DNA of 64,000 nt from contig JAGWTH010000012.1 in assembly GCA_028868995.1 (NCBI GenBank), positions 1-64,000 on the forward strand, written 5' to 3'. Made by a program: the position numbers and the translations under genes. Positions 5,574 to 58,627 of this stretch are shown piece by piece. The first letter of the stretch is position 1. Each line of letters opens with the position of its first letter. The notes under the pieces were generated by a model. It did not search any database. It saw only the letters and a program-made list of their open reading frames with translations, and was not told the DNA's origin. This stretch comes from Burkholderiales bacterium (GTDB taxonomy: Bacteria; Pseudomonadota; Gammaproteobacteria; Burkholderiales; Burkholderiaceae_C).

Positions 5574-6836
5574 TCAGCCCAGGGGCCGCAGGGCCAGCAC
5601 CGCCGCCGCGGCGAGAACGGCGAGGTAGCCGGCGGCGACCCGGCGCCCGACGGCGGCGCCGCCCACGATCCAGGCCATGGCTGCCTTGACGATCATGTTG
5701 GCCGTCACGGCCAGCACGATGGTGTTGGCGGCCACGGCGCGGCCGAGCTCGCCGCGCGCCGCCATCTGCAGGCTGGACACCAGCGGCGCGTCCACGTCGC
5801 CCAGGCCCGAGAGGAAGCCCACGGCGTAGACGCCGGCATCGCCCGCGGCCGCCTGCGCCGCCCGGGCCAGCACCGCGACAGCGCCCAGCAGCAGCGCGAA
5901 GCCCACCGCCGCGCGCAGCTCGAACACCGGGCCTTCGGGCAGGGTGGCCTGGGCGACGCCCTGGCCGCGGGCATGCCACAGCCAGGCGGCGGCGGCGAAC
6001 GACACCCCTGCCAGCACGAGCAGCGGTGCGGCCAGGGTCGAGGCGAGCGCCGGCTGCAGCAGCGTGGCCACCACCGCCATGCGCACGAACATCACGCCGC
6101 TCGCCGCGACGATCCCGGCCGTGGCCGGAACCACCAGCGCCGGCTGCGCCCGCGCCGTCCGGGCCAGGGCCAGCGTGGCGGCCGTCGACGAGGCCAGTCC
6201 GCCCAGCAGCCCGCTCCACAGCAGGCCCTGCTGCGCGCCGCGCCAGCGCGCAGCCACGTGGCCGGCGAGCGACAGGCCGGCCACGAGCACCACCGCCAGC
6301 CACAGGCGGAAGGGATTCAGCGCGTCGTAGGGCCCGTAGCCCCGGTCGGGCAGCAGCGGGAGGATGGCCGCGGTCAGCACGCCGAGCTGGAGCACGGCCT
6401 TGAGCTCCTCGGGCTGGATGCGCCGGATACCCTGGTGCAGTTCACCCTTGAGGCCCAGCAGCAAGGCCACGACGGCCGCGGTGCCCACGGCCAGGAGCAC
6501 CTGCCCGGCGGCGGCCAGGGCGCCCAGGCCCAGGGTCACCAGGCCGGCGATGCCGGTCGTGATGCTGACGCTCTTCTGTGCCGCGGCTGCGCGCCGGAAG
6601 GAAACGGCGAACAGCAGCGCGATCGCGGCCAGGCCGATGGCCAGGGGCAGCGGAGACTCCGCCCCGAGCACCAGCACGCCGCCCAGCAGCCCGATCAAGG
6701 CGAACGTGCGCAGCCCGGCCACACGTCCCCCTTCGGGCCGGTCCCGGCCCTGCCAGCCGCGCTCCAGCCCGACGAGCAGGCCGACAGCCAGCGCCGCGCC
6801 GAGGCGGCCGGCAGCATGGACCAGGTCGGGGTTCAC
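5574..6836 (-). CDS. MgtC/SapB-DUF4010 family membrane protein
   Basis: A 420-residue polytopic inner-membrane protein. The N-terminal 140 residues match the MgtC/SapB pattern (LGAALAVGLLVGLERGW, then GLRTFALIGLLGG), and the rest is the DUF4010 membrane domain with repeated small-residue helices. MgtC-type proteins are linked to growth at low magnesium and to control of ATP synthase. The DUF4010 fusion has no settled function. It faces the Cys-rich copper-storage-like gene across a 157-base divergent region and precedes the His-tailed transporter. A metal-homeostasis neighbourhood is suggested but unproven. Confidence 0.8.
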   Translation of the reverse strand: MNPDLVHAAGRLGAALAVGLLVGLERGWQGRDRPEGGRVAGLRTFALIGLLGGVLVLGAESPLPLAIGLAAIALLFAVSFRRAAAAQKSVSITTGIAGLVTLGLGALAAAGQVLLAVGTAAVVALLLGLKGELHQGIRRIQPEELKAVLQLGVLTAAILPLLPDRGYGPYDALNPFRLWLAVVLVAGLSLAGHVAARWRGAQQGLLWSGLLGGLASSTAATLALARTARAQPALVVPATAGIVAASGVMFVRMAVVATLLQPALASTLAAPLLVLAGVSFAAAAWLWHARGQGVAQATLPEGPVFELRAAVGFALLLGAVAVLARAAQAAAGDAGVYAVGFLSGLGDVDAPLVSSLQMAARGELGRAVAANTIVLAVTANMIVKAAMAWIVGGAAVGRRVAAGYLAVLAAAAVLALRPLG

Positions 6837-6898
6837 TTCGGGGCAGTCTCCATGATCAGGGCGAACAGCCAGTGTGGAGGCCGCCGAGGGGCGCCCGC

Positions 6899-6912
6899 TT
6901 GATTTCGCTCAA
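6899..6912. promoter_or_regulatory. Candidate FNR/ANR box
   Basis: TTGATTTCGCTCAA matches the FNR consensus TTGAT-N4-ATCAA except for one base. Its centre (6905.5) lies 41.5 bases before a possible start site near 6947, which follows a -10-like GACGAT at 6935-6940. That is the classic class II activator spacing for the plus-strand gene at 6994. Sequence match is seen; function is inferred. Confidence 0.45.
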
Positions 6913-6993
6913 GCCCTTCCGGGCCCGGCCTCGCGACGATGTGGCGCAGGCCGGCCCGGCCACCCGGACGGGTCCGCTCCACCGGAGGCTTCC

Positions 6994-7332
6994 ATGTCGC
7001 ACGAGAAGTACGAGGACTACCAGGACTGCATCGCCGCCTGCCACGCCTGCGTGGTGGCCTGCAACCACTGCGCCGCGTCCTGCCTGCAGGAGCCGCACGT
7101 CGGCGAGCTGGTCACCTGCATCGGGCTGGACACCGACTGCGCCCAGGCCTGCCAGCTGGCGATCGCCTTCATGTCGGGCGGCAGCGACCACGTCGCCGCG
7201 GTGTGCCGCATGTGCGCCGAGGTCTGCCGGGCCTGCGCCGCCGAATGCGCCCAGCACGACATGGACCACTGCCAGCAGTGCGCGGAAGCGTGCAAGCGCT
7301 GCGCGGAAGAATGCCGCAAGCTGGCCGGCTGA
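6994..7332 (+). CDS. Four-helix-bundle copper-storage-like protein (Csp/DUF326)
   Basis: A 112-residue cytosolic protein with 19 cysteines arranged as CxxxC and CxxC along predicted helices (for example [15 protein letters not shown] and [15 protein letters not shown]). This is the pattern of Csp-type copper-storage proteins, whose helix-bundle core binds many Cu(I) ions. There is no signal peptide, so a Csp3-like cytosolic role is expected. The start ATG has a GGAGG ribosome-binding site seven bases upstream (6983-6987). It is downstream of the FNR-like box at 6899 and ends one base before the convergent glucan phosphorylase gene. Confidence 0.85.
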
Positions 7333-7333
7333 A

Positions 7334-9022
7334 TCAGTTCCAGTAGGCCTCGGAGACGTAGCGCCGGATCATCCGGTGGCTGTGGAAGTAGGAGCCGTTG
7401 CGCGCGATCGTGGCCTTCATGATCGCCGCCCAGGCGCCGTGGTCCGCGGCGAACACGGGCAGGATCACGCGCTCCAGCTTGTCGTAGAGGGACTCGGCAT
7501 GCCGGTGCGCGTCGTGCTCGCCGTCCTCGCCGATGGCCCAGCCGGTGACGCCTTCCTCGCAGCCCTCCACCCACCAGCCGTCCAGCACGCTGAGGCTGGG
7601 CACGCCGTTGAGCGCGGCCTTCATGCCGCTGGTGCCGGAGGCCTCCAGGGGCGGCTGCGGCGTGTTGAGCCACAGGTCCACGCCGGCGACCACGCGGCGC
7701 GCCACCTCCAGCCGGTAGTCCGGCACGAACACCACCGGCACGCTGCCCGCCAGCTCGCGCGCCCAGGCTTGCAGCGCCTCGATGTGCTGCTTGCCGGCCA
7801 GGTCGCGCGGGTGCGCCTTGCCCGAGACGATCACCTGGAAGGGCGCGCGGCGGGCGATCGCGCGCAGCCGATCCAGGTCGGTGAACAGCAGGCCCGGGCG
7901 CTTGTAGTCGGTCATGCGGCGGGCGAAGCCGATGGTGAAGCGCTGCGCGTCGAGCCGCTCGGCGCCGGCCAGGCCGGCGAGCGAATGCAGCAGGTCCTGC
8001 TTGGCGCGCGCGTGCGCGGCGGTCACCTCCTCGTCCGGGATGCGCAGGGCGCGCACCAGCAGCTCCGGTTCGTGGCACCACTGCGGGATGCGGCGGTCGA
8101 ACACCGACTGCAGCGCCGGGGCGGTCCAGCTGCGCGCATGCACGCCGTTGGTGATCGCGTGCACGTCGTAGCCTGGGAACAGCGAGCGGGAGGTCTGGGC
8201 GTGCCGGTCCGCGACGCCGTTGACCCAGCCCGAGAGCGTGAGCGCCAGCCGGGTGAGGTTGAAGCGCACGTCGGGACACACGGTGTGCAGCACCAGCGGG
8301 TCGACCACCCCGGCGAGCGCCTGCTCCACCATCGCATGGGGGAACTGGTCGTGGCCGGCCTCCACCGGCGTGTGGGTGGTGAACACGCAGCGCCGCCGCA
8401 CCGCGGCCATCGCCTCGGGCAGCCCGGCGCGGCCGAAGCCGGCGCCCAGCTCGCGCAGCAGCTCCAGGGTCAGCAGGGCCGAATGACCCTCGTTGAGGTG
8501 GTATTTCTGGATGTGCGTGCCCAGCGCGTTGAGCATGCGCAGGCCGCCGATGCCCAGCACGATCTCCTGCTCCAGCCGATAGGCCTCGTCGCCGCCGTAC
8601 AGGTGGTCGGTCAGCCGCCGGTCTTCCGGCGCGTTCTCCGGCAGGTCCGTGTCCAGCAGCAGGACGGGCACGGGCGGGAACTGCAGGCAGGAGGTCTGCA
8701 CGTCGTACTGCCAGGCGCCGACCCAGACCTCGCGCCCGGCGATGTGCACCAGCACCTTGGCGGGCAGCCGCTGGGCATGCCCGGCCGGGTCCCAGGGCTC
8801 GGGCTCCTCCGTCTGGCGGCCGTCGCGGATGGCCTGGCGGAAATAGCCTTGCCGGCTGGCCAGGGTGACGCCGATGAGGGGCACGCCCAGGTCGGCGGCG
8901 CTGCGCATCATGTCGCCGGCCAGCACCCCCAGGCCGCCGCTGTAGGTGGGGATGCCGTCCTCCAGCGCGATCTCCATGGAGAAGTAGGCGATGCGCGGAC
9001 GGGACAGGTTCACGACCTTCAT
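7334..9022 (-). CDS. glgP: Alpha-glucan phosphorylase (GT35 family)
   Basis: A 562-residue cytosolic enzyme that releases glucose-1-phosphate from alpha-1,4-glucans. It opens with the short-form glucan phosphorylase signature ([21 protein letters not shown]). The pyridoxal-phosphate lysine is in [14 protein letters not shown], and the following DGWWVEG block is conserved. This short class lacks part of the N-terminal regulatory region of the roughly 800-residue phosphorylases. The start is ATG at 9022. Other glycogen genes are not adjacent. Its 3' end lies one base from the copper-protein stop. Confidence 0.9.
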
Positions 9023-9056
9023 GCGCCAAGGATAGTCCCGCGGCGGCCGCACCGCA

Positions 9057-9062
9057 CATAAT
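9057..9062 (+). promoter_or_regulatory. -10 box for a probable leaderless transcript
   Basis: CATAAT lies six bases before the ATG at 9069, and no Shine-Dalgarno sequence is visible. Transcription would begin at or within one or two bases of the start codon. No good -35 is seen. Confidence 0.4.
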
Positions 9063-9068
9063 CGATTC

Positions 9069-10046
9069 ATGCCTTCTTCCATCTGCGACGTGGCCGGCAT
9101 CGAGGTCGGCCATTGCACCGATCCCCGCCGTCCCACGGGCTGCTCGGTCGTTCTGGCGCGCGCCGGCGCCGTGGGCGCGGTCGACGTGCGCGGCGCCGCC
9201 CCCGGCACCCGCGAGACCGACCTGCTGGCGCCGCACAACGTGGTGGAGACCGTGCACGCGGTGCTGCTCGCCGGCGGGAGTGCCTTCGGGCTGGACGCGG
9301 CCGGCGGTGTCATGCGCTGGCTCGACGAGCGCGGCATCGGGCTGGCCGTGGGGCCGGCGCGCGTGCCCATCGTGCCCGCCGCCGTGCTGTTCGACCTGCC
9401 CCTGGGCGACCCGCGCATCCGTCCCGGCGCCGAGGCCGGCTACGCGGCCTGCGAGGCCGCCTCGCGCGCCGCGCCCGCCGAGGGCAGCGTCGGCGCCGGC
9501 GCCGGCGCGGTGGTGGGCAAGATCTTCGGCTTCCACCGGGCGATGAAGGGCGGCATCGGCAGCGCCGCCGTGACGGTGGACGGCGTCACGGTGGGCGCGC
9601 TGATCGCCTGCAACGCGCTGGGCGACGTGGTCGACCCGGCGACCGGGCAGGTGGTCGCCGGCGCACGCACGGTCGACGGACGCGCGCTGCTGGGTTCGCA
9701 GCAGGCCCTGGTCCGCGGGGAAATGCCCAAGCCCATGCTGGCCGGCAGCAACACGACGATCGGCGTGATCGCCACCGACGCGCAGCTCACCAAGGTGCAG
9801 GCAGCTCGGCTGGCCACGCAGGGCCACGACGGCCTGGCGCGCGCCATCCACCCGGCGCACACGCAGTCCGACGGCGACACCCTGTTCGCCCTGGCCACCG
9901 GCGCCAGCGGCCGCAGCCTGGGCCTGATGACACTCGGGGCCATGGCCGCCGAAGCCTGCTCGCTCGCGGTGCTGCGCGCGGTGCGCGCGGCGCGCGCGCT
10001 CACGCTCGGCGAGCTGCACCTGCCGGCGGCGGTCGACCTCGCATGA
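9069..10046 (+). CDS. P1-family (DmpA-like) N-terminal nucleophile peptidase
   Basis: A 325-residue member of the self-cleaving P1/S58 hydrolase family (DmpA aminopeptidase, BapA, NylC). The conserved early block is [19 protein letters not shown]. The autocatalytic site is Asn228-Thr229 in [12 protein letters not shown], where the new N-terminal Thr becomes the nucleophile in NylC-type members. Substrate (peptide, beta-peptide or amide) is not predictable. There is no signal peptide. The stop codon overlaps the ATG of the TAXI protein (ATGA), so the two genes are translationally coupled. Confidence 0.85.
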
Positions 10047-11404
10047 AGACGGTGACCGCCTTGCGCCACACCCTGGTGTCCCTGCGCGACCTGCTGATCT
10101 CCGCCGGGCCGATCGCGCTGCTGACCCTGGGCCTGCTGGCGCTGGCCTACTGGTGGCTGGACCCCAACCCGCCCAAGCGGGTCACGCTCGCCACCGGGCC
10201 GGCGCAGAGCGCCTACGACGAATTCGGCAAGCGCTACCAGCAGGCGCTCAAGCGCTACGGCATCCAGGTGGTGCTGGTGCCCAGCGCCGGCTCGCGCGCC
10301 AACCTGCGCCTGCTCCAGGAAGGCAAGGTCGACCTGGCCTTCGTCCAGGGCGGCAGCGGGGACGCCACGGCCAACGGCAACAGCGGCAACAGCGGCAACA
10401 GCGGCATCGTCTCGCTCGGCAGCCTGTTCGTGGAGCCCCTGTGGCTGTTCTACCGCGCCGATGCCGCGAAGAAGGCGCCCGGCGGCGAACTGACCTCGCT
10501 CGTGCAGCTGAAGGACCTGCGGGTGAACATCGGCGCGCGGGGCAGCGGCTCGCCCGGCATCATGCGCCGGCTGCTGGAAGCCAACGGCCTGGACCCGGCG
10601 AAGCTGGAGCTGTCGCGGCTGGACCAGACCGCCGCGACGGTGGCCTTCCTCGACGGCCAGATCGACGTGGACGTGTTCGCCTCGGCGCCCGAATCGCTGA
10701 TGGTGCAGATGCTGTTGCAGACGCCGGGCGTGCGCCTGGTGGATTTCAGCCAGAGCGAGGCCTACGCGCGCCGCTTCCCCTTCCTCACGCCCGTGGTCCT
10801 GCCGCGCGGCGTGGTGGACCTGGCACGCGACCTGCCGCCGCAGGACGTGCGCCTGGTCGCCACCACCACCTCCATGCTCGCGCGCGAGGGCACGCATCCC
10901 GCCCTGCTGCAGCTGTTCACCCAGGCGGCCAGGGACATCCACAGCCCCGCGGGCTGGTTCAACCGTGCCGGCAGCTTCCCCAACATCGAGCACGGCGAAT
11001 ACCCGATCTCGCGCGAGGCGGAGCGCACCATCCGCAGCGGCCAGCCCTTCCTGCAGCGCTGGCTGCCGTTCTGGCTGGCCAACCTGGTGGAACGCATGTG
11101 GCTGGCGCTGGGCATCATCGTGGCCGTGACGCTGCCGCTGACGCGCATCGTGCCGCCGCTGTACCAGTTCCGCATCCGCTCGCGCGTCTTCCGCTGGTAC
11201 GGCCGGCTGCGCGACATCGAGAACCGGCTGCACGCGCAGCCCGGGGAGGCGCCCGAGCTGGTGCGCGAGCTCGACGCGCTGGACGAGAAGGTCGGGCGCA
11301 TCACCGTGCCGCTGTCCTACGCCGACGAGCTCTACGCGCTGCGCAACAACATCGACAGCGTGCGGCGCCGGGCGCTGGGCGGCGCCCCGGCGGCGGCGCC
11401 CTGA
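10043..11404 (+). CDS. TAXI-family TRAP solute-binding protein with membrane anchors
   Basis: A 453-residue protein. One N-terminal transmembrane helix (about 20-40) is followed by a periplasmic TAXI-type substrate-binding domain ([31 protein letters not shown], then [11 protein letters not shown]-like block). A second transmembrane helix sits near residues 350-375, and a cytosolic helical tail follows. Typical TAXI receptors are soluble and pair with a DctM/DctQ permease. None is present here, and the anchored form may be a sensor or an orphan receptor. A short NSG repeat (residues about 110-120, DNA 10373-10405, nine-base unit) interrupts the domain. The start overlaps the previous stop. 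Confidence 0.82.
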
Positions 11405-11766: not shown

Positions 11767-13854
11767 TCACAGGCTGGAACTGTTGCGCCAAGCCGCGCGG
11801 GCGACCGCGTCGAGCGCACCTTCCACCACGGGTTGCGAAGACACGAGGCGCAGCGTGCCCTGCGCCAGCAGGCCGTTCAGCTTGCGGCGCGTCATCGAGC
11901 GCGCAGTGCCGTTGGCGTGGGTGAACATGAACAGCAGCCCGTGCGGGCTGGCCCAGGTGAGCTGCCAGCGTTCCCAGCGCTCGCCCAGCAGGTCCACGTA
12001 GGCGCCCACGTCCAGGTCCGGCGGCGGCAGCGTGTCGGGCTCCGACGCCTCCATGCCGGCGGGCGCCGAGGTCTCCGGCACGAAGCCCGACTCGTAGATC
12101 TCGAGCGGCGCCAGCCAGGTCGCCGAGGTTTCGGGCGCCGGCTCCGGCTCGCCGGCGCGCAGCGCGCTGCCGGTGGCGGCCGACAGGGCCAGGTCGCGCA
12201 GCGCGGACAACAGGTTCTGCCAGCGGTCGGTGTCCGCCGGCAGGTGGTCGATGGCCGCCAGGCCCTCGTCGATGCGCGCGACCAGGGTGCGGTGCTGGCC
12301 GGCCACGCGAGCGGCCAGCGCCGCCTGCACGCTCCACAGCACCGCCTGCACCACCCACCAGCCGCCGCCCGGATCCTCGTCGCCCGTGGTGTCGGCCAGC
12401 CGCGCCTGCGCCATGAACTGGGCCCAGGGCCCCGTGAGGAAGGCCAGGGCCTCCCGCGGCGCCCGGGCCGCGTCCGGGCGTTCCAGGATCTGGCGGGCGA
12501 TGCGTCCGGCCAGCAGGTTGCGCTGCTCGGCGCGCATCAGCGCGCGCACCGCGCGCTCGCGGTTGCGGCGGCCGCGCGGCTGCACCTCGTCCCAGGCTTC
12601 CTGCAGGGCCGACAGGGCGATCTCGAAGGTGTCCGGGCCGTGGGCGCCGACATCCAGCAGGACCTCGGTGGCCTGCTGCAGGCCCTCCAGGAAGGCGGTG
12701 AAGCCCGCGTCCCGGGGCGAGGCCCAGGCCAGGCTGCGCTGCGTGACCTGCTCCAGCAGGCGGCGCGCCGGGTGCTGGCGGTCGCTGAAGAAGCGCGGGT
12801 CCACCAGGGCCAGTCGCAGCAGCGGCGGCTCCAGGTCGCGCACGATGTCGCGCACGGCGGGCAGCAGACGCGGGTCGCCCGCCAGCTGGTCCACCATCAG
12901 GTGCACCACCTCCAGGCCCAGGGCCTGGGAGGGTCGCCTGGCTTCCTGCCGCAGCGCCTCGCGGAAGGCGGCCAGGCTGTCTTTCTGCTGCCCCGGCATC
13001 GCGGCCTGGCGCTGGCGCAGCTGCAGCAGCAGCTGGTCGACCTTGCGCATGTCCTGCACCATCTCCAGTGCCGCCGGCACCGTCGCCGAGAAGTCACTGT
13101 CGGAGAAGACGATCACGCCCTCGTCGGCAACCTCGGCGGCCGGCGCGCCGCCCAGCAGCCGGCGCAGTTCCAGGATGGTCAGCTGGGTGGTGCCTTCGAG
13201 CGTCTCGCGCGCCACGTCCTCGTCCGCCCCGGCCGGGACGGCGCCGGCCGGCCGCAGGCGCTGCGCCAGGGCGGCGTAGGTCCGCGCCAGCTCGGGCGCC
13301 ATCAGGGCCGGCAGGTGGCGCAGCCAGCGGCGCCGCACCGCGGGCGACACGGGGCTCTGGCGCGCCAGCCGGTAGATGCCGCGGGCGTAGACCTCGGGGC
13401 GAAGGGGATGGCGCTGCCGGCCACCGCGCGGCGCCAGCTGCGCCGCCTCCAGAGCGGCCTCCAGGGCCGCCAGCTCGGGGCGCACGGCCGCCTCCAGTTC
13501 GTGGGCGCCGCGCACCAGGTCCGCGTTCTCCTGCACCTGCTCGTCGCCCAGCAGCGGCAGCGCGTCGAAGCTGAGGGAGGAGACCCGGTCGCCCGCGATC
13601 GCCTGGGCGATCTCGGCCAGCAGCGCCTGCGGAAAGGCGGCCGCCAGCGCCTGCTGCTGCTCGCGCAGCACGTCCGCGGCCTCCAGCAGCAGGTTGCGGT
13701 CCACCAGGTCCTCGATCGCCGCGGCCTGCGCCGGCAACTCGCCCAGCGCGCGAGCGAGCGTCGCCCGCATCAGCTCGCCGCTGGCGACAGCGGCGTCCTT
13801 GACGCAGGCGCGATAGAGCGACTGGTACTGGGGTGGTGGCGTGGGGCCGCTCAT
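11767..13854 (-). CDS. DUF1631 family protein, paralogue 1
   Basis: A 695-residue, largely helical cytosolic protein with no membrane segments. It is homologous along its length to the protein at 15626-17872. Shared blocks include the central DPRFFSDRQHPARRLLEQ-like motif (about residues 345-375) and the C-terminal module (QLTWASPHGLLFMFTHANG, then SMTRRKL). That C-terminal module looks like a small beta-domain of the kind found in PilZ-like regulators, but canonical c-di-GMP motifs are not obvious. No function is assigned. It is the last gene of an operon after DUF1631 paralogue 2 and ettA, starting 28 bases after the ettA stop. Confidence 0.85.
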   Translation of the reverse strand: MSGPTPPPQYQSLYRACVKDAAVASGELMRATLARALGELPAQAAAIEDLVDRNLLLEAADVLREQQQALAAAFPQALLAEIAQAIAGDRVSSLSFDALPLLGDEQVQENADLVRGAHELEAAVRPELAALEAALEAAQLAPRGGRQRHPLRPEVYARGIYRLARQSPVSPAVRRRWLRHLPALMAPELARTYAALAQRLRPAGAVPAGADEDVARETLEGTTQLTILELRRLLGGAPAAEVADEGVIVFSDSDFSATVPAALEMVQDMRKVDQLLLQLRQRQAAMPGQQKDSLAAFREALRQEARRPSQALGLEVVHLMVDQLAGDPRLLPAVRDIVRDLEPPLLRLALVDPRFFSDRQHPARRLLEQVTQRSLAWASPRDAGFTAFLEGLQQATEVLLDVGAHGPDTFEIALSALQEAWDEVQPRGRRNRERAVRALMRAEQRNLLAGRIARQILERPDAARAPREALAFLTGPWAQFMAQARLADTTGDEDPGGGWWVVQAVLWSVQAALAARVAGQHRTLVARIDEGLAAIDHLPADTDRWQNLLSALRDLALSAATGSALRAGEPEPAPETSATWLAPLEIYESGFVPETSAPAGMEASEPDTLPPPDLDVGAYVDLLGERWERWQLTWASPHGLLFMFTHANGTARSMTRRKLNGLLAQGTLRLVSSQPVVEGALDAVARAAWRNSSSL

Positions 13855-13882
13855 CGCGGCGGGCCCTTCCGGGAGTCCCTGT

Positions 13883-15547
13883 TTATTTCAGGGCTTTATA
13901 GCGCACCCGGTGCGGTCTTGCACCTTCCTCGCCCAGGCGGCGTCGCTTGTCGGCCTCGTATTCCTGGTAGTTGCCGTCGAAGAACACCCACTGGCTGTCG
14001 CCCTCGGCGGCCAGGATGTGGGTGGCGATGCGGTCCAGGAACCAGCGGTCGTGGCTGATCACCAGGACGCTGCCGGCGAATTCCAGCAGCGCATCTTCCA
14101 AGGCACGCAACGTTTCCACGTCGAGGTCGTTGGAGGGTTCGTCCAGCAGCAGCACGTTGCCACCCTGCAGCAGGGTCTTGGCAAGGTGCAGGCGGCCGCG
14201 TTCACCGCCGGACAGCATGCCGACCTTCTTCTGCTGGTCGCCGCCGTTGAAGTTGAACCGGCCGCAGTAGGCGCGGCTGGCCATCTGGAACTTGCCGATA
14301 TTGATGATGTCCAGGCCGCCCGAGACGTCTTCCCAGACGGTCTTGTCGTTGGCCAGTTCGTCGCGGTGCTGGTCGACGAAGGCCATCTGCACGGTCTTGC
14401 CGATCTTCACCTCGCCGCTGTCCGGCTTCTCCTTGCCGGCAATCAGCTTGAACAGCGTCGACTTGCCCGCGCCGTTGGGGCCGATGATGCCCACGATGGC
14501 GCCCGCGGGCACCTTGAAGCTCAGGTTGTCGATCAGGACCCGGTCGCCGAAGGACTTCGAGACGTTCACGAACTCGATGACCTCGTGCCCGAGGCGCTCG
14601 CCCACGGGGATGAAGATCTCGTTGGTCTCGTTGCGCTTCTGGTATTCGTAGTCCGACAGCTCCTCGAAGCGGGCCAGGCGGGCCTTGCTCTTGGCCTGGC
14701 GCCCCTTGGGGTTCTGCCGCGCCCACTCCAGTTCCTTCTTCATCGCCTTGGTGCGGGCGTCCTCGGTGCGCTGTTCCTGCTCCAGGCGCGCCTCCTTCTG
14801 CTCCAGCCAGGTGGAGTAGTTGCCCTTGTAGGGGATGCCGCGGCCGCGGTCCAGCTCCAGGATCCACTCGGCGGCATTGTCCAGGAAGTAGCGGTCGTGG
14901 GTGATGCCCACCACGGTGCCGGGGAAGCGGGCCAGGAACTGCTCCAGCCATTCCACCGACTCGGCGTCCAGGTGGTTGGTGGGCTCGTCCAGCAGCAGCA
15001 TGTCGGGCTTGGACAGCAGCAGGCGGCACAGGGCCACGCGGCGCTTCTCGCCGCCCGAGAGGTTCTTGATCACGGCGTCCCAGGGCGGCAGGCGCAGGGC
15101 GTCGGCGGCGATCTCCAGCTGGTGTTCGGTCTCCTCGCCGCCGGCCGAGGCGATGATCGCCTCCAGCCTCTGCTGCTCCTCCGACAGCTTGTCGAAGTCG
15201 GCGTCGGGCTCGGCGTAGGCCGCGTAGACCTCCTCCAGCCGCTTCTTGGCCTCCAGCACCTCGCCCATGCCGCCTTCCACCGCCTCGCGCACCGTCTGCT
15301 CGGGATCGAGCTGCGGCTCCTGCGGCAGGTAGCCGATGCGGATGCCCGGCATCGGCAAGGCCTCGCCCTCGATCTCCTTGTCGATGCCGGCCATGATCTT
15401 CAGCAGCGTGGACTTGCCGGAGCCGTTGAGGCCGAGGACGCCGATCTTGGCGCCGGGGAAGAAGCTGAGCGAGATGTCCTTCAGGATCTGCCGCTTGGGC
15501 GGCACGATCTTGCTGACATGGTTCATCGTGTAGACGTACTGGGCCAT
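13883..15547 (-). CDS. ettA: Energy-dependent translational throttle protein EttA (ABC-F)
   Basis: A 554-residue ABC-F ATPase that binds the ribosomal E site and gates the first elongation cycle according to ATP/ADP ratio. There are two nucleotide-binding domains: first Walker A GLNGSGKST with signature LSGGEKRRVALCRLL, second Walker A GPNGAGKST with signature LSGGERGRLHLAKTL. The charged linker between them and the first-domain arm are present. Length matches the E. coli protein. The start is ATG at 15547 (MAQYVYTMNHVSKIVPPKR). It sits between two DUF1631 genes on the same strand with short gaps (78 and 28 bases), so an operon is likely. Confidence 0.96.
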   Translation of the reverse strand: MAQYVYTMNHVSKIVPPKRQILKDISLSFFPGAKIGVLGLNGSGKSTLLKIMAGIDKEIEGEALPMPGIRIGYLPQEPQLDPEQTVREAVEGGMGEVLEAKKRLEEVYAAYAEPDADFDKLSEEQQRLEAIIASAGGEETEHQLEIAADALRLPPWDAVIKNLSGGEKRRVALCRLLLSKPDMLLLDEPTNHLDAESVEWLEQFLARFPGTVVGITHDRYFLDNAAEWILELDRGRGIPYKGNYSTWLEQKEARLEQEQRTEDARTKAMKKELEWARQNPKGRQAKSKARLARFEELSDYEYQKRNETNEIFIPVGERLGHEVIEFVNVSKSFGDRVLIDNLSFKVPAGAIVGIIGPNGAGKSTLFKLIAGKEKPDSGEVKIGKTVQMAFVDQHRDELANDKTVWEDVSGGLDIINIGKFQMASRAYCGRFNFNGGDQQKKVGMLSGGERGRLHLAKTLLQGGNVLLLDEPSNDLDVETLRALEDALLEFAGSVLVISHDRWFLDRIATHILAAEGDSQWVFFDGNYQEYEADKRRRLGEEGARPHRVRYKALK

Positions 15548-51288: not shown

Positions 51289-52611
51289 ATGACGAAATTG
51301 CGGCTTCTCCCCCTGGCGGCGGCCATCGGGCTCTCCCTTGCGGGCCCGGCGCGCGCCGACACCTTGCTGCAGATGTACGAAGCGGCCCGCGCCTACGACG
51401 CTACCTGGCAGTCCGCGAAGCTGCAGTACGACTCCAGCGAGTTCCGCGCCGAGCAGGCCCGCTCGGGCCTGCTGCCGCAGGCGGCCATCACCGCCGGCGT
51501 CAGTCGCAGCCATCTCGACATCGACGTGCCGAACACCGACCGTGCCTTCGGCACGCAGAACGCGACCCTCAGCGCCTCCCAGCCGCTGTACCGGCCGGCC
51601 AACCTGGCCACCTACAACCAGGCGCAGCGCCAGCTGCAGCAGGCCAGGTACCAGCTCACCGCCGCCGGCCAGGACCTGATCATCCGGGTGAGCCAGGCCT
51701 ACTTCGACGTCCTCGGGGCCCAGGACACGCTCACCTTCGTGCGCGCCCAGAAGCAGGCCACGGCCGAACAGCTCGCCTCGGCCAAGCGCAACTTCGAGGT
51801 CGGCACCACCACCATCACCGACACCCGCGAGGCGCAGGCGCGTTACGACCTGGTGCAGGCGCAGGAGATCCAGGCGGAGAACGACCTCCACGTCAAGAAG
51901 CTGGCGCTCGACACGCTGGTGGGAAAGCAGGATGCGCAGCCCGACCCGGTGGGGCCGCTGAAGGACGTGCCGCCGCCGCAGCCGGCCAACCCGGAGGCCT
52001 GGGTCGCCGCCGCCGAGGACGCCAGCCCCGCCATCCTGCAGGCCAAGGCCGGCGTGCAGGTCGCCGAGCTGGAGACCGAGAAGGCGCGCGCCGGGCACAA
52101 GCCGACGGTGGACCTGACCGCCAGCTACGGCTGGATCCACAACGTCGACGGCAGCGCCGTGTCCACGATCGACAACCGGCCCAAGCAGGCAACGGCCGGG
52201 ATCACCCTCACGCTGCCGCTGTTCTCCGGCTTCGCGGTGCAGAACCGCATCCGCGAGACGCTGGCCCTGGAGGACAAGGCCCGCAGCGACCTGGAGGCCG
52301 CGCGCCGGCAGGTGGCGCAGGCCGTGCGCACGGCCTACTTCGGCGTGGTGTCGGGACTGGGGCAGGTGCGGGCGCTGGAAGCCGCCGAGGCCTCCAGCCA
52401 GAGCTCGCTGGACGCCAACCTCCTGGGGTACCAGGTGGGCGTGCGCATCAACATCGACGTGCTGAACGCGCAGACCCAGCTTTACCAGACCAAGCGCGAC
52501 CTCTCGCAGGCCCGCTACAACGTGCTGCTCGGCCAGCTGCGCCTGCGCCAGGCCAACGGCACGCTGCAGGCGGAGGACCTGACGCGCATGAGCGCGCTGC
52601 TGGCGCGGTAA
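51289..52611 (+). CDS. tolC: TolC-family outer-membrane efflux channel
   Basis: A 440-residue outer-membrane factor. The signal peptide (MTKLRLLPLAAAIGLSLAGP) ends near ARA-D. Two structurally repeated halves follow, with long helices (TLLQMYEAARAYDATWQSAK; ALEAAEASSQSSLDANLLGY) and the conserved second-half block VGVRINIDVLNAQTQLYQTK. It forms trimers serving RND pumps or type I secretion. A strong intrinsic terminator lies 18 bases after the stop. Confidence 0.93.
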   Translation: MTKLRLLPLAAAIGLSLAGPARADTLLQMYEAARAYDATWQSAKLQYDSSEFRAEQARSGLLPQAAITAGVSRSHLDIDVPNTDRAFGTQNATLSASQPLYRPANLATYNQAQRQLQQARYQLTAAGQDLIIRVSQAYFDVLGAQDTLTFVRAQKQATAEQLASAKRNFEVGTTTITDTREAQARYDLVQAQEIQAENDLHVKKLALDTLVGKQDAQPDPVGPLKDVPPPQPANPEAWVAAAEDASPAILQAKAGVQVAELETEKARAGHKPTVDLTASYGWIHNVDGSAVSTIDNRPKQATAGITLTLPLFSGFAVQNRIRETLALEDKARSDLEAARRQVAQAVRTAYFGVVSGLGQVRALEAAEASSQSSLDANLLGYQVGVRINIDVLNAQTQLYQTKRDLSQARYNVLLGQLRLRQANGTLQAEDLTRMSALLAR

Positions 52612-52629: not shown

Positions 52630-52660
52630 GGGCGCAGGGAGCAGACCCCTGCGCCCTTTT
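52630..52660 (+). terminator. Rho-independent terminator of the tolC transcript
   Basis: GGGCGCAGGG (52630-52639) pairs with CCCTGCGCCC (52647-52656), a ten-base perfect stem, followed by TTTT. It separates the conserved tolC block from the accessory island. Confidence 0.9.
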
Positions 52661-52733: not shown

Positions 52734-55400
52734 ATGCAGTTGCTTGACAACATCAACAGCCTGCTCGGTGAGGACCTGAAGAAGGCCCTGACGCCGCATT
52801 CCCGGCTGATGATCGCAGCTGCCTCCTTTTCCATCTATGCCTACGAGGCCCTGAAAAGCGAACTGGAGGCGATCGACTCGCTCGAGTTCATCTTCACCCA
52901 GCCCACCTTCGTTCCCGAGGAAGTCACCGATTCAGGCAAGAGAGTCCGCCGCGAGTTCCATATCCCGAAAACCGAGCGGGAACGGAACTTCTATGGCACG
53001 GAATTCGAGCTCCAGCTGCGCAACAAGCTGACCCAGCGCGCCATCGCGCGCGAGTGCGCCGACTGGCTGCGCCGCAAGGCAAGCTTTCGCTCGAATCGCG
53101 GCGGCGCCCCGATGCAGCAGTTCGCGGTGGTCCAGGCCCGCGAACCCGCCGCGGTGTACATGCCCTTGCACGGCTTCACCGCCGTCGACCTCGGCTACCG
53201 GCAGGGCAACGCCGTCTCCAATATCGTCACCAAGTTCGACGATCCCTCCCACACGAGCACCTTCCTCAAGCTCTTCTACCAGATCTGGAACGATCCGGAA
53301 AAGCTCGAAGACGTCACCGAGCGTCTGTGCGAGCACATCGCCTCCGTCTACCAGGAGAACTCGCCGGAGCGCATTTACTTCCTGATGCTCTACAACATCT
53401 TCAACGAGTTCCTGGAGGACCTCGACGAAGATGTTCTGCCCAACGACCGCACCGGCTACCAGGACACGTTGGTCTGGAAGAAGCTATTCAACTTCCAGCG
53501 CGATGCGGCCACCGGCATCATCAACAAGCTGGAAACCTACAACGGCTGCATCCTGGCTGACAGCGTGGGGCTGGGCAAGACGTTCACCGCGCTGGCGGTC
53601 ATCAAGTACTACGAGCTGCGCAACAAGTCGGTCCTGGTCCTCTGCCCCAAGAAGCTAGCGGACAACTGGCTGACCTACAACCGCAACCTGAAGACCAACC
53701 TCTTCGCCGCGGACCGCTTCAACTACGACGTCCTGTGCCACACCGACCTGCTGCGCACCAGCGGTGAATCCTTCGGCACACCGCTGGATCGCGTGAACTG
53801 GGGCAACTACGACCTCGTCGTTATCGACGAGTCGCACAACTTCCGAAACAACGACGCCTACAAGGACCGGGAGACGCGCTACCAGCGGCTCATGAACGCC
53901 GTGGTCAAGCAGGGTGTGAAGACCAAGGTACTGATGCTGTCGGCCACGCCGGTCAACAACCGGTTCACGGACCTGCGCAACCAGCTGGCGCTGGCCTACG
54001 AGGGCAATGCGGGCCACCTCGGAGAGAACCTGCGCACCGAGAAGGAAATCGAAGAAGTGTTCAGGCGCGCCCAGGCGGCGTTCAACACCTGGTCCAAGCT
54101 GCCGCCGGAAGAGCGCACGGCCGAATCCATCCTCGCCGCGCTGGATTTCGATTTCTTCGAGCTGCTGGACAACGTCACTATCGCCCGGTCCCGCAAGCAC
54201 ATCGAGACCTTCTACGACACCCGGGACATTGGCCAGTTTCCCAAGCGCCTGAAGCCCCTTTCCTTCCATTGCCCGCTCACGCGCCGCACGGATGTGATCG
54301 GCTTCAACCGGATCTTCGACGAGCTCTCCCGCCTCAAGCTGGCCGTCTATGCGCCCGTCAGCTACATCCTGCCGAGCCGGCTGAAAAGGTACGAAGCGCT
54401 CTACGACACCGAGGTGGCGAGCGGCGGCGGCAAGTTCCGGCAGGCCGACCGCGAGCGCAGCCTGCAGGCGCTGATGATCGTCAACCTGCTCAAGCGCTTG
54501 GAAAGCTCGGTCGCCTCGTTCCGGCTCACTCTGCAAAGCCTGCAGAGCAACCATCTGCAGACCATCACCAAGATCGTGGAATTCTCCGCCAGCGGCAAAG
54601 GCGGCAGCTTTGCCGATGTGGCCCCGGCCCTGCAGGACGTCGACTTCGACGAGGACGAGGACGAGGACTTCCCCGAGCCGGGAGACGAGCGCACCGGCGG
54701 CAAGGTGCAGATCAACCTCGCGGACATGGACCTGCCCTCCTGGGAGCATGACCTGCGCGCGGACCTGCAGGTCATTGAGCTGCTGCTGGCCGAGATGGAG
54801 AAGATCACCCCGGCGGACGACGCGAAGCTGCAGCACCTGAAGGCGCAGATCGAGGCCAAGCTTGCCGACCCGATCAATCCGGGCAATCGCAAGCTTCTGA
54901 TCTTCACCGCGTTCGCGGACACGGCAGCCTACCTGTACGACAACCTCGCAGACAACCTGTTGTCCGGCCATGGCCTCCACACCGGGCGCGTCACCGGCGC
55001 GCACGACCCGAAGACCACGCTGAAGCTGAAGGTCGATCCGCGGCGCGGCATCGACTACCAGACCATGCTGATGCTGTTCTCGCCGCGTTCCAAGGAGAAG
55101 GCAGCCATCCTTCCCGAAGAGCCGGGCGAGATCGACGTGCTGCTGGCCACGGACTGCATCTCGGAAGGGCAGAACCTGCAGGACTGCGACACGGTCATCA
55201 ACTACGACATCCACTGGAACCCGGTGCGCATCATCCAGCGCTTCGGCCGGGTGGACCGCATCGGCTCGCCCAACGCCAGCATCCAGCTGGTGAATTACTG
55301 GCCCGACATCAGCCTGGACGAGTACATCCGGCTGAAAGAGCGCGTGGAGACCTGCCCCTGGCCCCGGCCCTGTTCGCCTGGCCACCCCAGGCCGCCGTAG
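52734..55400 (+). CDS. SNF2-type helicase of a type III-like restriction locus, C-terminally truncated
   Basis: An 888-codon ORF. An N-terminal phospholipase-D-like region (about 1-230) precedes a superfamily 2 helicase core: Walker A DSVGLGKT (Lys282), DESH box (about 365), SATP, an acidic insert (DEDEDED), and motif VI QRFGRVDRIG (about 840). Native sequence ends at DEYIRLKERVE near residue 870. The last 18 residues (starting TCPWPRPCSP) are out-of-frame DUF4391 sequence. As I recall, relatives continue for some 200 residues. Helicases of this kind precede DUF4391, Mod and Res genes, as here. The last base of the tolC terminator lies about 70 bases upstream, and a TAGAAT near 52683 may be the -10. 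Probably non-functional or altered. Confidence 0.82.
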   Translation: MQLLDNINSLLGEDLKKALTPHSRLMIAAASFSIYAYEALKSELEAIDSLEFIFTQPTFVPEEVTDSGKRVRREFHIPKTERERNFYGTEFELQLRNKLTQRAIARECADWLRRKASFRSNRGGAPMQQFAVVQAREPAAVYMPLHGFTAVDLGYRQGNAVSNIVTKFDDPSHTSTFLKLFYQIWNDPEKLEDVTERLCEHIASVYQENSPERIYFLMLYNIFNEFLEDLDEDVLPNDRTGYQDTLVWKKLFNFQRDAATGIINKLETYNGCILADSVGLGKTFTALAVIKYYELRNKSVLVLCPKKLADNWLTYNRNLKTNLFAADRFNYDVLCHTDLLRTSGESFGTPLDRVNWGNYDLVVIDESHNFRNNDAYKDRETRYQRLMNAVVKQGVKTKVLMLSATPVNNRFTDLRNQLALAYEGNAGHLGENLRTEKEIEEVFRRAQAAFNTWSKLPPEERTAESILAALDFDFFELLDNVTIARSRKHIETFYDTRDIGQFPKRLKPLSFHCPLTRRTDVIGFNRIFDELSRLKLAVYAPVSYILPSRLKRYEALYDTEVASGGGKFRQADRERSLQALMIVNLLKRLESSVASFRLTLQSLQSNHLQTITKIVEFSASGKGGSFADVAPALQDVDFDEDEDEDFPEPGDERTGGKVQINLADMDLPSWEHDLRADLQVIELLLAEMEKITPADDAKLQHLKAQIEAKLADPINPGNRKLLIFTAFADTAAYLYDNLADNLLSGHGLHTGRVTGAHDPKTTLKLKVDPRRGIDYQTMLMLFSPRSKEKAAILPEEPGEIDVLLATDCISEGQNLQDCDTVINYDIHWNPVRIIQRFGRVDRIGSPNASIQLVNYWPDISLDEYIRLKERVETCPWPRPCSPGHPRPP

Positions 55401-55405
55401 GCCGC

Positions 55406-56023
55406 GTGGTGCCCAAGAACAAGGTCTACGTGCACGCCCGGCCCAGCCCGGCATTGCGCGCCCGCTTCGTCGCGCAGGTGGAGCAGATCGTCTGGGCCTT
55501 CAAGCTGGCGCCCGAGACCGTCAACCTGCCGGCAGCGCCCGAGGTGCCGGAGATCGAGTTGTTTCGCATCGCGCAAAAGACGCCGGAACTGGACCTCGAC
55601 GTCCTGCGCTGCATCGACCGGGCCATTCCGTTTCCCATCCTGTTCGAGCTGCAGCATGCCGGCCGCAGCCGCGGAGTGGCCGCCTACAAGCGGCCGGCCG
55701 AAGGCAAGGCCACGCAATGGGTGCCGGGCGAGTACTTCGTCACCCCCTGGCAGCCTGACGAAGCCACCCGGGCCGGCCTGCCGGTGGCCTTGGACCTGGG
55801 CGGCCTGTACGGGGAGCTGATCCGAGCCCATATGCCGCTGCCCGCCCGGCCCGGCGAGAGCCTGCGCGCCCAGGTCGAGCGCCTGGCCCTACTCCGGGAA
55901 GCTGAGGCCGCTGCCCGCAAGCTGGCGGCCCGCCTCGCGACGGAACCCCAGTTCAATCGCAAGGTGGAGCTCAATGCCCAGTTGCGTACCATTCGAACCC
56001 GACTCGAGAGCCTGTCGCGCTGA
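55406..56023 (+). CDS. DUF4391 protein, N-terminus lost at a deletion junction
   Basis: The DUF4391 frame can be read back to about 55352 (LPLAPALFAWPPQAAVGRVV), inside the end of the helicase ORF. The original start codon is missing. The first usable codon is GTG 55406 (VPKNKVYVHARPSP), with no ribosome site. The remainder is intact: QIVWAFKLAPETVNLPAAPE, DVLRCIDRAIPFPILFEL, VALDLGGLYGELI and a C-terminal coiled coil. DUF4391 is a small protein regularly encoded between this helicase and the Mod subunit; its role is unknown. Confidence 0.72.
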   Translation: MVPKNKVYVHARPSPALRARFVAQVEQIVWAFKLAPETVNLPAAPEVPEIELFRIAQKTPELDLDVLRCIDRAIPFPILFELQHAGRSRGVAAYKRPAEGKATQWVPGEYFVTPWQPDEATRAGLPVALDLGGLYGELIRAHMPLPARPGESLRAQVERLALLREAEAAARKLAARLATEPQFNRKVELNAQLRTIRTRLESLSR

Positions 56024-56047
56024 AGCGGCAGGCATGCTTTGAATCCC

Positions 56048-56632
56048 ATGGAAAAACTCAAGCTGCACAGCCCGGACCTCACCCAGGGCAACATCGCCAG
56101 GTTGGCGGAACTGTTCCCCAACTGCGTCACCGAGACGCAGGATGCCCAGGGCACGGTGCGCCGCGCCGTCGACTTCGATCAGTTGCGGCAGGAACTGTCG
56201 TCCGTCATCGTGGAAGGCCCGCAGGAGCGCTACCAGCTCAATTGGCCGGGCAAGCGCGAGGCGCTGCTGCTGGCCAATGCGCCCATCGCCAAGACGCTGC
56301 GACCCTGCCGCGAGGAGAGCGTGGACTTCGACACAACGCGCAACCTGTTCATCGAGGGCGACAACCTGGAGGCGCTGAAGCTGCTGCAGGAGACGTACCT
56401 CAACAAGGTGAAGATGATCTACATCGATCCGCCGTACAACACGGGGAGCGATTTCATCTACGAGGACGATTTTTCTGAAGACGTGGATAGCTACTTGAAA
56501 CGTTCAAATCAGAAGGACGAGTCAGGTGATCGTCTCGTCATGAATCCAGAGAATAACGGAAGACATCATTCAGACTGGTTGACCATGATGTATACGCGTG
56601 AGCCCGCTGCAGTACACCGTGGTTTCCGGTGA
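56048..56632 (+). pseudogene. Type III-like Mod DNA methyltransferase, N-terminal fragment
   Basis: The ORF starts MEKLKLHSPDLTQGNIARLA, typical of site-specific (beta-class) Mod subunits. It includes the catalytic motif IV in MIYIDPPYNTGSDFIYEDDF, where DPPY is the methyltransfer site. After about 183 residues (HSDWLTMMYTR, near 56597) the family sequence stops and ten foreign residues follow to a stop at 56632. The SAM-binding motif I region and the target recognition domain, which lie further C-terminal in this permuted class, are absent. Bases 56461-56580 are 44% GC by my count, far below the neighbours. It cannot be an active methyltransferase. Confidence 0.85.
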
Positions 56633-57359
56633 ACAGGTCGATGCCGCGACGCCGGAGGATCTGGCCAACGGGGATGCGTTCCGTGTCAGACAGAGCCGCA
56701 CGGAGCTGCATCGCGCCTCGGTGCACTCCGCGGTGCGCTACGACCTGATCGGCCGGCTGTCCGAGGAGACGCAGCTCACACGGCGTACGGTGGCGGCCAT
56801 CATCAGGGGATCGAACGCGGCGGTGTTCGCGCAGTACCGGACCAACCCGGAGGACTTCATGCAGAAGGCCGCGCGGCTGATCAACGAACAGAAAGCCACG
56901 GTCATCGTCGAACACATCTCCTACGACGCCACCGGCGATCGCCACGAATTGGACATCTTCACGCAGGAAAAGGCGGGAGAAGATTTCAGCGCCGCATTCA
57001 AGGCCGAACGGCACGTGTTCGACTATGTGTTCACGGACTCGAAGAACGAGCGTGCGTTCGTGCAGGACTTGGACGTCAGCACGGAGGTGGTCGTCTACGC
57101 GAAGCTGCCACGTGGCTTCTTCATCCCGACGCCTGTCGGCAACTACAACCCCGATTGGGCCATCGCCTTCCGTGAGGGCAGCGTGAAGCACGTCTATTTC
57201 GTGGCGGAAACGAAGGGGTCCCTCTCCAGCATGGATCTGCGCAGGATCGAGCAGAGCAAGATCGACTGTGCCCGTGTCTTCTTTGCAAGGATCACGTCGG
57301 AGCAGGTGAAGTACGACGTGGTGGACAGCTATGCGAAGCTGATGGAGCTCGTTCGGTAG
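56598..57359 (+). pseudogene. Type III-like Res endonuclease, C-terminal fragment
   Basis: A 253-codon reading frame from GTG 56598, overlapping the Mod fragment. It matches only the end of a type III restriction subunit: LIGRLSEETQLTRRTVAAII, INEQKATVIVEHISYDATGD, then the endonuclease core VVVYAKLPRGFFIPTPVGNY followed by PDWAI and VYFVAETKGS (PD...ExK nuclease motif: D of NPDWAI, E and K of AETKG). The DEAD-type helicase half and most of the protein are missing. A deletion between the Mod fragment and this point would explain both. It ends 14 bases from the convergent waaA. Confidence 0.82.
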
Positions 57360-57373
57360 CGTCCAGCGGCGCG

Positions 57374-58627
57374 TCAACGCGCTGTCGCGGGCAGTAGCGC
57401 CAGCACCGCTGCGGCCGTCTTTTCCGCCGCGCCGCGGTGGGCCGCCGCGAAGCGCTCGCCGGCCTGCGCCATCGCCTGGCGCGCGGCGGCGTCGCGCGCC
57501 AGTTCGACCGCCACGCGCACGCCCTCCTCCATCGAGGCCACGCGCCGCGCCGCCCCGGCCGCCAGCGCCAGCTCCGCGGCCTCGCCGAAGTTGAAGGTGT
57601 GCGGCCCCATGACGACCGGGCAGCCGCAGGCGGCGGCCTCGATCAGGTTCTGCCCGCCCAGGCGGGCGAAGCTGCCGCCCAGCAACGCCGCATCGGCCAG
57701 CCCGTAGTACAGCGCCATCTCGCCCAGCGAATCGCCCAGCCAGACGTCGGCCGGGGCCGGCGCGGCGTCCCAGCTGCTGCGGCGCGAGACCGAGCGGCTG
57801 GCGCGCAGCACCAGGGCCGCCACCTCGTCGAAGCGCTGGGGATGGCGCGGCACCAGCAGCCACTGCACGTCGCGGTGCTGCGCGATCGCCTCCAGGAACT
57901 CCGCTTCCTCGCCTTCGCGCGAACTGGCGAACATCACCACCGGGCGCGGCGAGGCGCTGCGCCAGTCGCGGCCTTCGCGCAGCTGCTGCGCGTCGGGGCT
58001 CGCATCGAACTTCAGATTGCCGAACACGCCCTGCACCCGGGCGCCCGCCTCGCGCAGGCGGCGCGCGTCGTCCTCGGTCTGGGCCCAGGCGGCGGCCAGC
58101 GCGCCGTAGGCGGGCCGCGACAGGCGCGACAGGCGCCGGGCCTGGGCCAGCGACTTGGGCGACAGGCGCGCGTTGGCCAGGGCCAGCGGCATCCCGCGGG
58201 CCTGGCAGGCGGCGGCCAGGTTGGGCCACACCTCGGTCTCCATCAGGACGCCGGCGCTGGGGAGGAAGTGGTCCAGGAAACGGCGCACCGCCGCCGGCGT
58301 GTCCCAGGGCAGCCAGGCCTGGGCATCGCCGTCGCGCAGCAGGCGCCGGCCCTCGGCACGCCCCGTGGCCGTGCCGTGCGTGAGCAGCACGCGCAGGTCC
58401 GGCTGCGCGCTGCGCAGGGCCTCCAGCAAGATCGCCGCCGCGCGCGTCTCGCCCAGCGAGACCGCGTGGATCCACAGGCGCCCCGGCTCGGTCGCGCCGG
58501 GGTAGCGGCCGAAGCGCTCCTCCACGTGCTCCAGGTAGCCGGGCTCGGCCTTGCCGCGCCGCCGCAGCTTCCGGCGCAGCAGCGGCTGGGCGCCGATGAG
58601 CACCAGGGAATAGAGCGGCCGGATCAT
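57374..58627 (-). CDS. waaA: 3-deoxy-D-manno-octulosonic acid (Kdo) transferase
   Basis: A 417-residue GT30 glycosyltransferase that adds Kdo to lipid A precursor at the inner membrane. The catalytic base Glu60 lies in WIHAVSLGETRAA, as in E. coli. LLTHGTATGRAEG, METEVWPNL and the C-terminal nucleotide-sugar block GGSFARLGGQNLIEAAACGC are conserved. An N-terminal hydrophobic helix anchors it. It overlaps the waaC stop by four bases. Confidence 0.95.
   Translation of the reverse strand: MIRPLYSLVLIGAQPLLRRKLRRRGKAEPGYLEHVEERFGRYPGATEPGRLWIHAVSLGETRAAAILLEALRSAQPDLRVLLTHGTATGRAEGRRLLRDGDAQAWLPWDTPAAVRRFLDHFLPSAGVLMETEVWPNLAAACQARGMPLALANARLSPKSLAQARRLSRLSRPAYGALAAAWAQTEDDARRLREAGARVQGVFGNLKFDASPDAQQLREGRDWRSASPRPVVMFASSREGEEAEFLEAIAQHRDVQWLLVPRHPQRFDEVAALVLRASRSVSRRSSWDAAPAPADVWLGDSLGEMALYYGLADAALLGGSFARLGGQNLIEAAACGCPVVMGPHTFNFGEAAELALAAGAARRVASMEEGVRVAVELARDAAARQAMAQAGERFAAAHRGAAEKTAAAVLALLPATAR

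Follow-up and report, generated by a model that had tools for sequence, protein, structure and literature searches.

A composite type III restriction locus between tolC and waaA of a Burkholderiales bacterium, probably disabled by two recent deletions

Are the four short genes between tolC and waaA of a Burkholderiales bacterium a working restriction system, the remnant of one, or a product of genome assembly? The locus lies in a stretch of 64,000 bp, hereafter the window, which corresponds to bases 1–64000 of contig 25 (JAGWTH010000012.1; 75,143 bp) of assembly GCA_028868995.1 (81 contigs, 3.76 Mb, scored 99.67% complete). Pieces of a helicase gene, a DUF4391 gene and the modification (Mod) and restriction (Res) genes of a type III restriction–modification (RM) system, in this order and all on the plus strand, fill the 4,762 bp between the end of tolC (52611) and the stop codon of the convergent waaA (57374–57376). 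Fragments of all four members of the composite quartet are present, and full-length genes are not. A first-pass annotation had described these four genes, their order and strand, and two junctions that damage them, and all are found where it placed them. The explanation that we consider likely is that a composite type III restriction locus was acquired and then inactivated by two deletions, both recent.

We aligned the pieces to full-length homologues, and the relatives carry exactly the parts that the window lacks; by this comparison, two breakpoints appear to account for the damage (Table 1). The helicase relatives come from a search that matched 18 of 200 same-family genomes, including the genome studied here, and the Mod relatives are the best 80 of 573 confirmed stretches, a biased sample. 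The helicase piece contains SNF2 and Helicase_C domains (Pfam), is close to the PADLOC model 'HKD+Snf2' (4.7e-104) and retains the motifs GLGKT, DESH and QRFGRVDR, and its C-terminal ~225–240 residues are lost. Its homology ends at codon 872 (55349), after which the open reading frame (ORF) runs through 16 unrelated codons to a stop at 55398–55400. The loss of the C-terminus, claimed earlier, is thus confirmed, but the place is refined, as homology stops at codon 872 and not at the end of the ORF. When the whole 888-codon frame is used as the query, the match ends at codon 871–873 in 80 of 84 loci, and the other four (L019, L032, L053, and L065) hold short helicase pieces. The DUF4391 gene is nearly whole, its Pfam profile (9.1e-50) being covered from position 1 to 232 of 232; as had been noticed from the sequence, the start codon is gone, together with at most a few residues.

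The Mod piece is the N-terminus of a type III methyltransferase (PADLOC MTase_III, 5.2e-92; EcoP15I Mod, 1.1e-21). Counted from ATG 56048, it is retained to codon 184 of 621–692, with DPPY at codon 127, so that two thirds or more of the gene is lost. It ends in HSDWLTMMYTR, where relatives go on with LKLARNLL or a near variant. With the whole 197-codon frame (from TTG 56039) as the query, the match ends at codon 185–187 in 80 of 82 loci, the remaining two being cut by the end of the locus. The Res piece is the C-terminus of a type III endonuclease (PADLOC, 5.8e-60; Pfam RE_endonuc PF19778, 2.5e-33), retained from about codon 753 of 1006–1035 with PD..ETK present, and its matches begin at the first codon of the query in 60 of 60 loci. 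No Walker A motif is found in the Res fragment, and the translocase part is missing. The first-pass annotation had read the C-terminal part of Mod and the N-terminal bulk of Res as lost and the DPPY and PD-ExK motifs as surviving, and the alignments agree on each point. The locus therefore holds neither a complete Mod with target-recognition and cofactor-binding parts nor a Res that combines translocase and nuclease. Because Mod lacks everything past codon 184 and Res consists of its nuclease domain only, what is left of the locus is predicted to carry out neither methylation nor restriction.

The closest same-genus locus, that of genome G236, encodes a helicase with 81.5% amino-acid identity to that of the window. 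Compared with G236, the window lacks 680 bp at junction 1; at junction 2 it lacks 5,314 bp, a 559-residue cargo gene included. Measured against G206, which does not have the cargo gene, the second gap shrinks to 3,790 bp. The window itself shows no cargo gene. Each deletion takes coding sequence from two adjacent genes at once, and neither junction gives an in-frame fusion. At junction 2, CGCGT can be read as Mod sequence (codon CGT) or as Res sequence (CGC GT.), corresponding to a 5-bp microhomology, and at junction 1 one or two bases are possibly common to both sides; these figures are estimates. A composite type III RM locus (PLD/SNF2-type helicase, DUF4391, Mod, and Res) would have been acquired horizontally into the tolC–waaA gap, and two recent deletions, through illegitimate recombination at sites of little or no homology, would then have followed. 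The deletion at junction 1 would have taken the helicase C-terminus and the DUF4391 start, and the deletion at junction 2 the rest of Mod and the Res translocase.

The surviving pieces contain no stops or frameshifts. With G219 as the outgroup, the residue changes specific to the window and to G236, respectively, number 39 and 59 in the helicase, 24 and 37 in DUF4391, 11 and 13 in Mod, and 19 and 24 in Res; in 20 comparisons (five outgroups, four genes) the count for the window never exceeds that for G236. The alignments give no sign of relaxed evolution. Pieces free of stops, frameshifts, and excess amino-acid changes argue for a recent loss, and the damage appears to be recent relative to the divergence of the compared copies.

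The setting suggests that the locus came from outside. The first-pass annotation had named tolC and waaA as close neighbours in related genomes. Among 59 other same-genus genomes, 52 have the two genes convergent on one contig, and the remaining seven are unpairable. The gap between the two protein matches ranges from −4 to 13,295 bp in these 52 genomes (at most 300 bp in 29, 300–900 bp in 5, above 900 bp in 18), and measures 139, 45, and 787 bp in G207, G097, and G239, respectively, the three relatives whose tolC is closest. We retrieved 35 of the 52 intervals, among them every one of the 18 longer than 900 bp, and compared the 32 of at least 30 bp; none of the 32 has a DNA or protein match to the island. 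The full quartet is located at other genomic places in same-genus G236, G219, and G206, and a divergent version is present in G212. In G236 the quartet is ~32 kb from tolC on the same contig, and waaA is on another contig. Because the gap is short in many relatives, the island is absent from the compared intervals and the quartet is sited elsewhere, the site would be an old convergent gap that often receives genes, and the locus would have entered it from outside. The GC content is 0.623, 0.703, 0.578, and 0.616 in the helicase, DUF4391, Mod, and Res pieces, and 0.721 in the flanks. The lower GC content, the absence from the 32 intervals and the full-length genes of relatives make an acquired and decayed type III-like composite locus, as first proposed, the best fit. 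The tolC–waaA gap also repeatedly takes up unrelated genes, mostly without a PADLOC match, across the 52 same-genus genomes.

The first-pass annotation had also offered a locus collapsed during assembly. Full-length Mod and Res relatives, used as queries, match nothing in the whole genome of the bacterium beyond the fragments, and a helicase relative matches the fragment plus two weak stretches of 67 and 65 residues. A search of the genome at E 0.001 gives no second copy of the region 55300–56700, the 16-mers flanking or spanning both junctions are not repeated within the window, and both junctions are interior to the 75-kb contig. Because none of the missing parts turns up on another stretch of the assembly, and the sequence shared at the junctions is estimated at no more than 5 bp, a repeat-driven collapse is unlikely, and decay is the favoured one of the two options. 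More generally, the locus could be intact in the cell, with non-adjacent sequence joined twice by the assembler or a gap filler. Such an artefact would account for two clean junctions within one locus and for the perfectly preserved reading frames of all pieces, and the assembly is a draft in 81 contigs. However, a k-mer or overlap assembler would need a shared word far longer than the 5 bp estimated for junction 2, and a collapse would usually leave the lost DNA as a contig of its own, which an assembly of this completeness does not contain. We therefore judge an artefact to be distinctly improbable. Several points nevertheless weigh against an acquired locus with two real deletions. Both junctions rest on one assembly. 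Two deletions within 4.6 kb, each leaving perfect pieces, are somewhat unusual, and local misassembly predicts this as well; undecayed pieces are equally expected from a misassembled intact locus. Horizontal acquisition rests on GC content, patchy presence and the short interval of relatives. No repeat pair bounding the island is present among the 20 direct-repeat families listed, of 42, and no integrase lies within the interval, which the four pieces fill, the wider window not having been searched for integrases.

If the junctions are real, they could also have been made together in one complex rearrangement with template switching. They are just 1.25 kb apart and all pieces look equally fresh, but the order and strand of every piece are kept, and two simple deletions suffice without added assumptions; we regard a single event as an unlikely variant. 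It is very hard to believe that the locus is instead a functional reduced form, in which Mod is dispensable for the action of the truncated helicase, DUF4391, and the nuclease domain of Res. The helicase motifs are retained, including QRFGRVDR, DUF4391 is nearly whole, and the Res nuclease domain keeps PD..ETK. However, the junctions fuse nothing in frame, DUF4391 has no start codon, and the parts homologous to those that serve recognition and translocation in EcoP15I-like enzymes are missing from Mod and Res. Moreover, the two junctions occur together in none of the 80 Mod relatives, many of which are cut by contig ends. Loss through two recent deletions remains the reading that we prefer.

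Table 1 Features of the locus, of its flanks and of two related loci (window coordinates unless a locus is named)
Feature	Location	Strand	Basis
Helicase fragment, codons 1–872 of 1096–1119	52734..55349	+	ORF, Pfam, PADLOC, alignments of relatives
Junction 1, helicase codon 872 joined to the first part of DUF4391 (~codon 3 in the G236 protein)	55349..55350	+	Comparison with relatives
DUF4391 gene without start codon; listed ORF from GTG 55406, 205 aa	55349..56023	+	ORF, Pfam, relatives
Type III Mod fragment, codons 1–184 with DPPY	56048..56599	+	PADLOC, relatives
Junction 2, Mod codon 184 to Res ~codon 753; CGCGT assignable to both sides	56595..56599	+	Comparison with relatives
Type III Res fragment, last 254 residues, PD-(D/E)xK nuclease domain	56595..57359	+	Pfam, PADLOC, relatives
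tolC (presumed name), left neighbour of the island	51289..52611	+	ORF; homologues in 59/60 same-genus genomes, own included
Terminator-like element of tolC, 10-bp inverted repeat, then TTTT	52630..52660	+	Direct sequence reading
waaA (presumed name), right neighbour, convergent; stop codon 57374–57376	57374..58615	-	ORF
Duplicated Res 5' end	L053:6544-6621 and L065:6618-6692		

What does the intact locus look like? In 42 loci the sequence extends 6.5 kb or more upstream and 7.2 kb or more downstream, and 38 of these have all four genes near full length by span and in order. The other four are L023, which has neither helicase nor DUF4391, L079, in which the end of the locus cuts the helicase, and the decayed L032 and L084. 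Across all 80 loci, the quartet is present by span in 48, with open frames in all four genes in 45 and an interrupted frame in the other three (L021, L040, and L046). The helicase and DUF4391 are constant partners of Mod–Res in the sampled relatives. The spacing between Mod and Res is variable: among the 69 relatives in which the Mod end and the Res start are reached, it is at most 21 bp in 26 and 277–3,205 bp in 43, and one of the 43 spaced loci (L054) has no ORF of 80 aa in this slot. The 48 slot ORFs of at least 110 aa match Schlafen AlbA_2 (15), DUF1016_N (10) with YhcG nuclease (9), and Fic (7); further matches are to RhuM (2), PIN (2), and others, with AAA among the families (loci L021 to L100). 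In two of the 43 spaced loci, the 5' end of Res (75–78 bp) is duplicated ahead of the cargo gene with 89–90% identity, as if the cargo had been inserted at the start of Res. L024 has a third, weak match to the Res 5' end, of 14 bp, upstream of the Res start. Tentatively, the intact locus may form a single composite defence system: the helicase and DUF4391 would cooperate with Mod–Res, and the Mod–Res slot would be loaded with an interchangeable effector (Schlafen/AlbA, DUF1016 nuclease, Fic, RhuM, PIN, or AAA), at times with a duplicate of the Res 5' end left behind; we put this forward as a possibility that is somewhat more doubtful than not.

EcoP15I Mod marks one strand of a short asymmetric site, and the EcoP15I Mod–Res complex cuts unmarked DNA after ATP-driven communication between sites. 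Because the Mod and Res of the quartet are homologous to those of EcoP15I, the intact pair would probably act in the same way, by one-strand marking and ATP-driven cutting. In the EcoP15I structure (PDB 4zcf), the Mod fragment aligns with residues 41–181 of 644 of the modification subunit and the Res fragment with residues 846–952 of 970 of the restriction subunit, and the remainder of both subunits is missing from the window. The same four genes, in the same order and on the same strand, are annotated in Escherichia coli ABU 83972 (ECABU_RS24850, RS24845, RS24840, and RS24835), where the DNA identity is 71.2% over 83% of a query spanning the helicase to the Mod N-terminus. None of the four is flagged incomplete or pseudo there, and a regulator precedes and a broken integrase follows them. 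Of 5,426 E. coli genomes, 89 match the helicase-to-Mod query at least in part, and in 44 the match covers 80% or more of it. Plasmid pE31A of Aeromonas media (JJL53_RS24275 to RS24245) encodes, in order, an SNF2-related protein, DUF4391, a DNA methyltransferase, and a DEAD/DEAH box helicase family protein, the last taken as Res by its position. It differs in that an additional ATP-binding gene separates DUF4391 from Mod, and an AAA ATPase and DUF4276 pair separates Mod from Res.

An extra SF2 helicase-like ATPase gene 5' of mod, as in Eco86II and BspHIV, has been reported in more than 500 genomes, with a function described as unclear (PMC8259958). These systems resemble the quartet in having the helicase-like gene upstream of mod and res, a likeness of position; they differ in that DUF4391 is not named in the text of that paper and in that their Mods make m4C (PMC8259958). 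In the literature that we found, no role is described for the helicase or DUF4391 of the quartet. The predicted fold of DUF4391 is confident and has no convincing match among known structures. Two other assignments were tried for the helicase and rejected. The DrmD model of DISARM (NCBIfam) gives 140 bits against a cut-off of 610, for a truncated protein and with only the four proteins of the locus scanned, and the model of a phospholipase D-like antiphage protein (NF042964) gives 108.9 bits against a curated cut-off of 1100, again for a truncated fragment.

The flanking genes carry the names that the first-pass annotation gave them, tolC and waaA, which are presumed. At the place of the strong terminator that it had put after tolC, GC-rich arms at 52630–52639 and 52647–52656, read directly from the sequence, form a perfect 10-bp inverted repeat with TTTT after it; the repeat is absent from the list of the automatic scan.

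Related loci vary in further ways. A second variable slot, between DUF4391 and Mod, measures 2 bp to 6.4 kb in 66 loci (for example L056, L058, L060, and L079), and that of L060 contains a 900-aa ORF. A tandem Mod pair precedes a single Res in L047 (8028–11881). L084 is another decaying copy, in which helicase codons 1–984 are fused in frame to DUF4391 from codon 63 (6526–9909) and Res is broken at about codon 569 (13630–15345). L039 has an in-frame internal Mod deletion (10001–10945) that starts a few codons from the Mod breakpoint of the window, and its DUF4391 and Res are broken as well. The helicase is reduced to its first ~144–264 residues in L110 (genome G146), L065, L053, and L032; in L053 and L065 this piece precedes a full-span Mod, and DUF4391 has no match there.

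The locus in the window is a case of ordinary gene decay and belongs to a kind that is known and annotated. It documents what appears to be a very fresh loss of a restriction system, with both deletions placed to within a few bases. The unusual points are limited to the intact quartet, namely the unexplained part played by the helicase and DUF4391 and the slot for exchangeable cargo, and this widespread intact quartet merits more attention than the remnant in the window.

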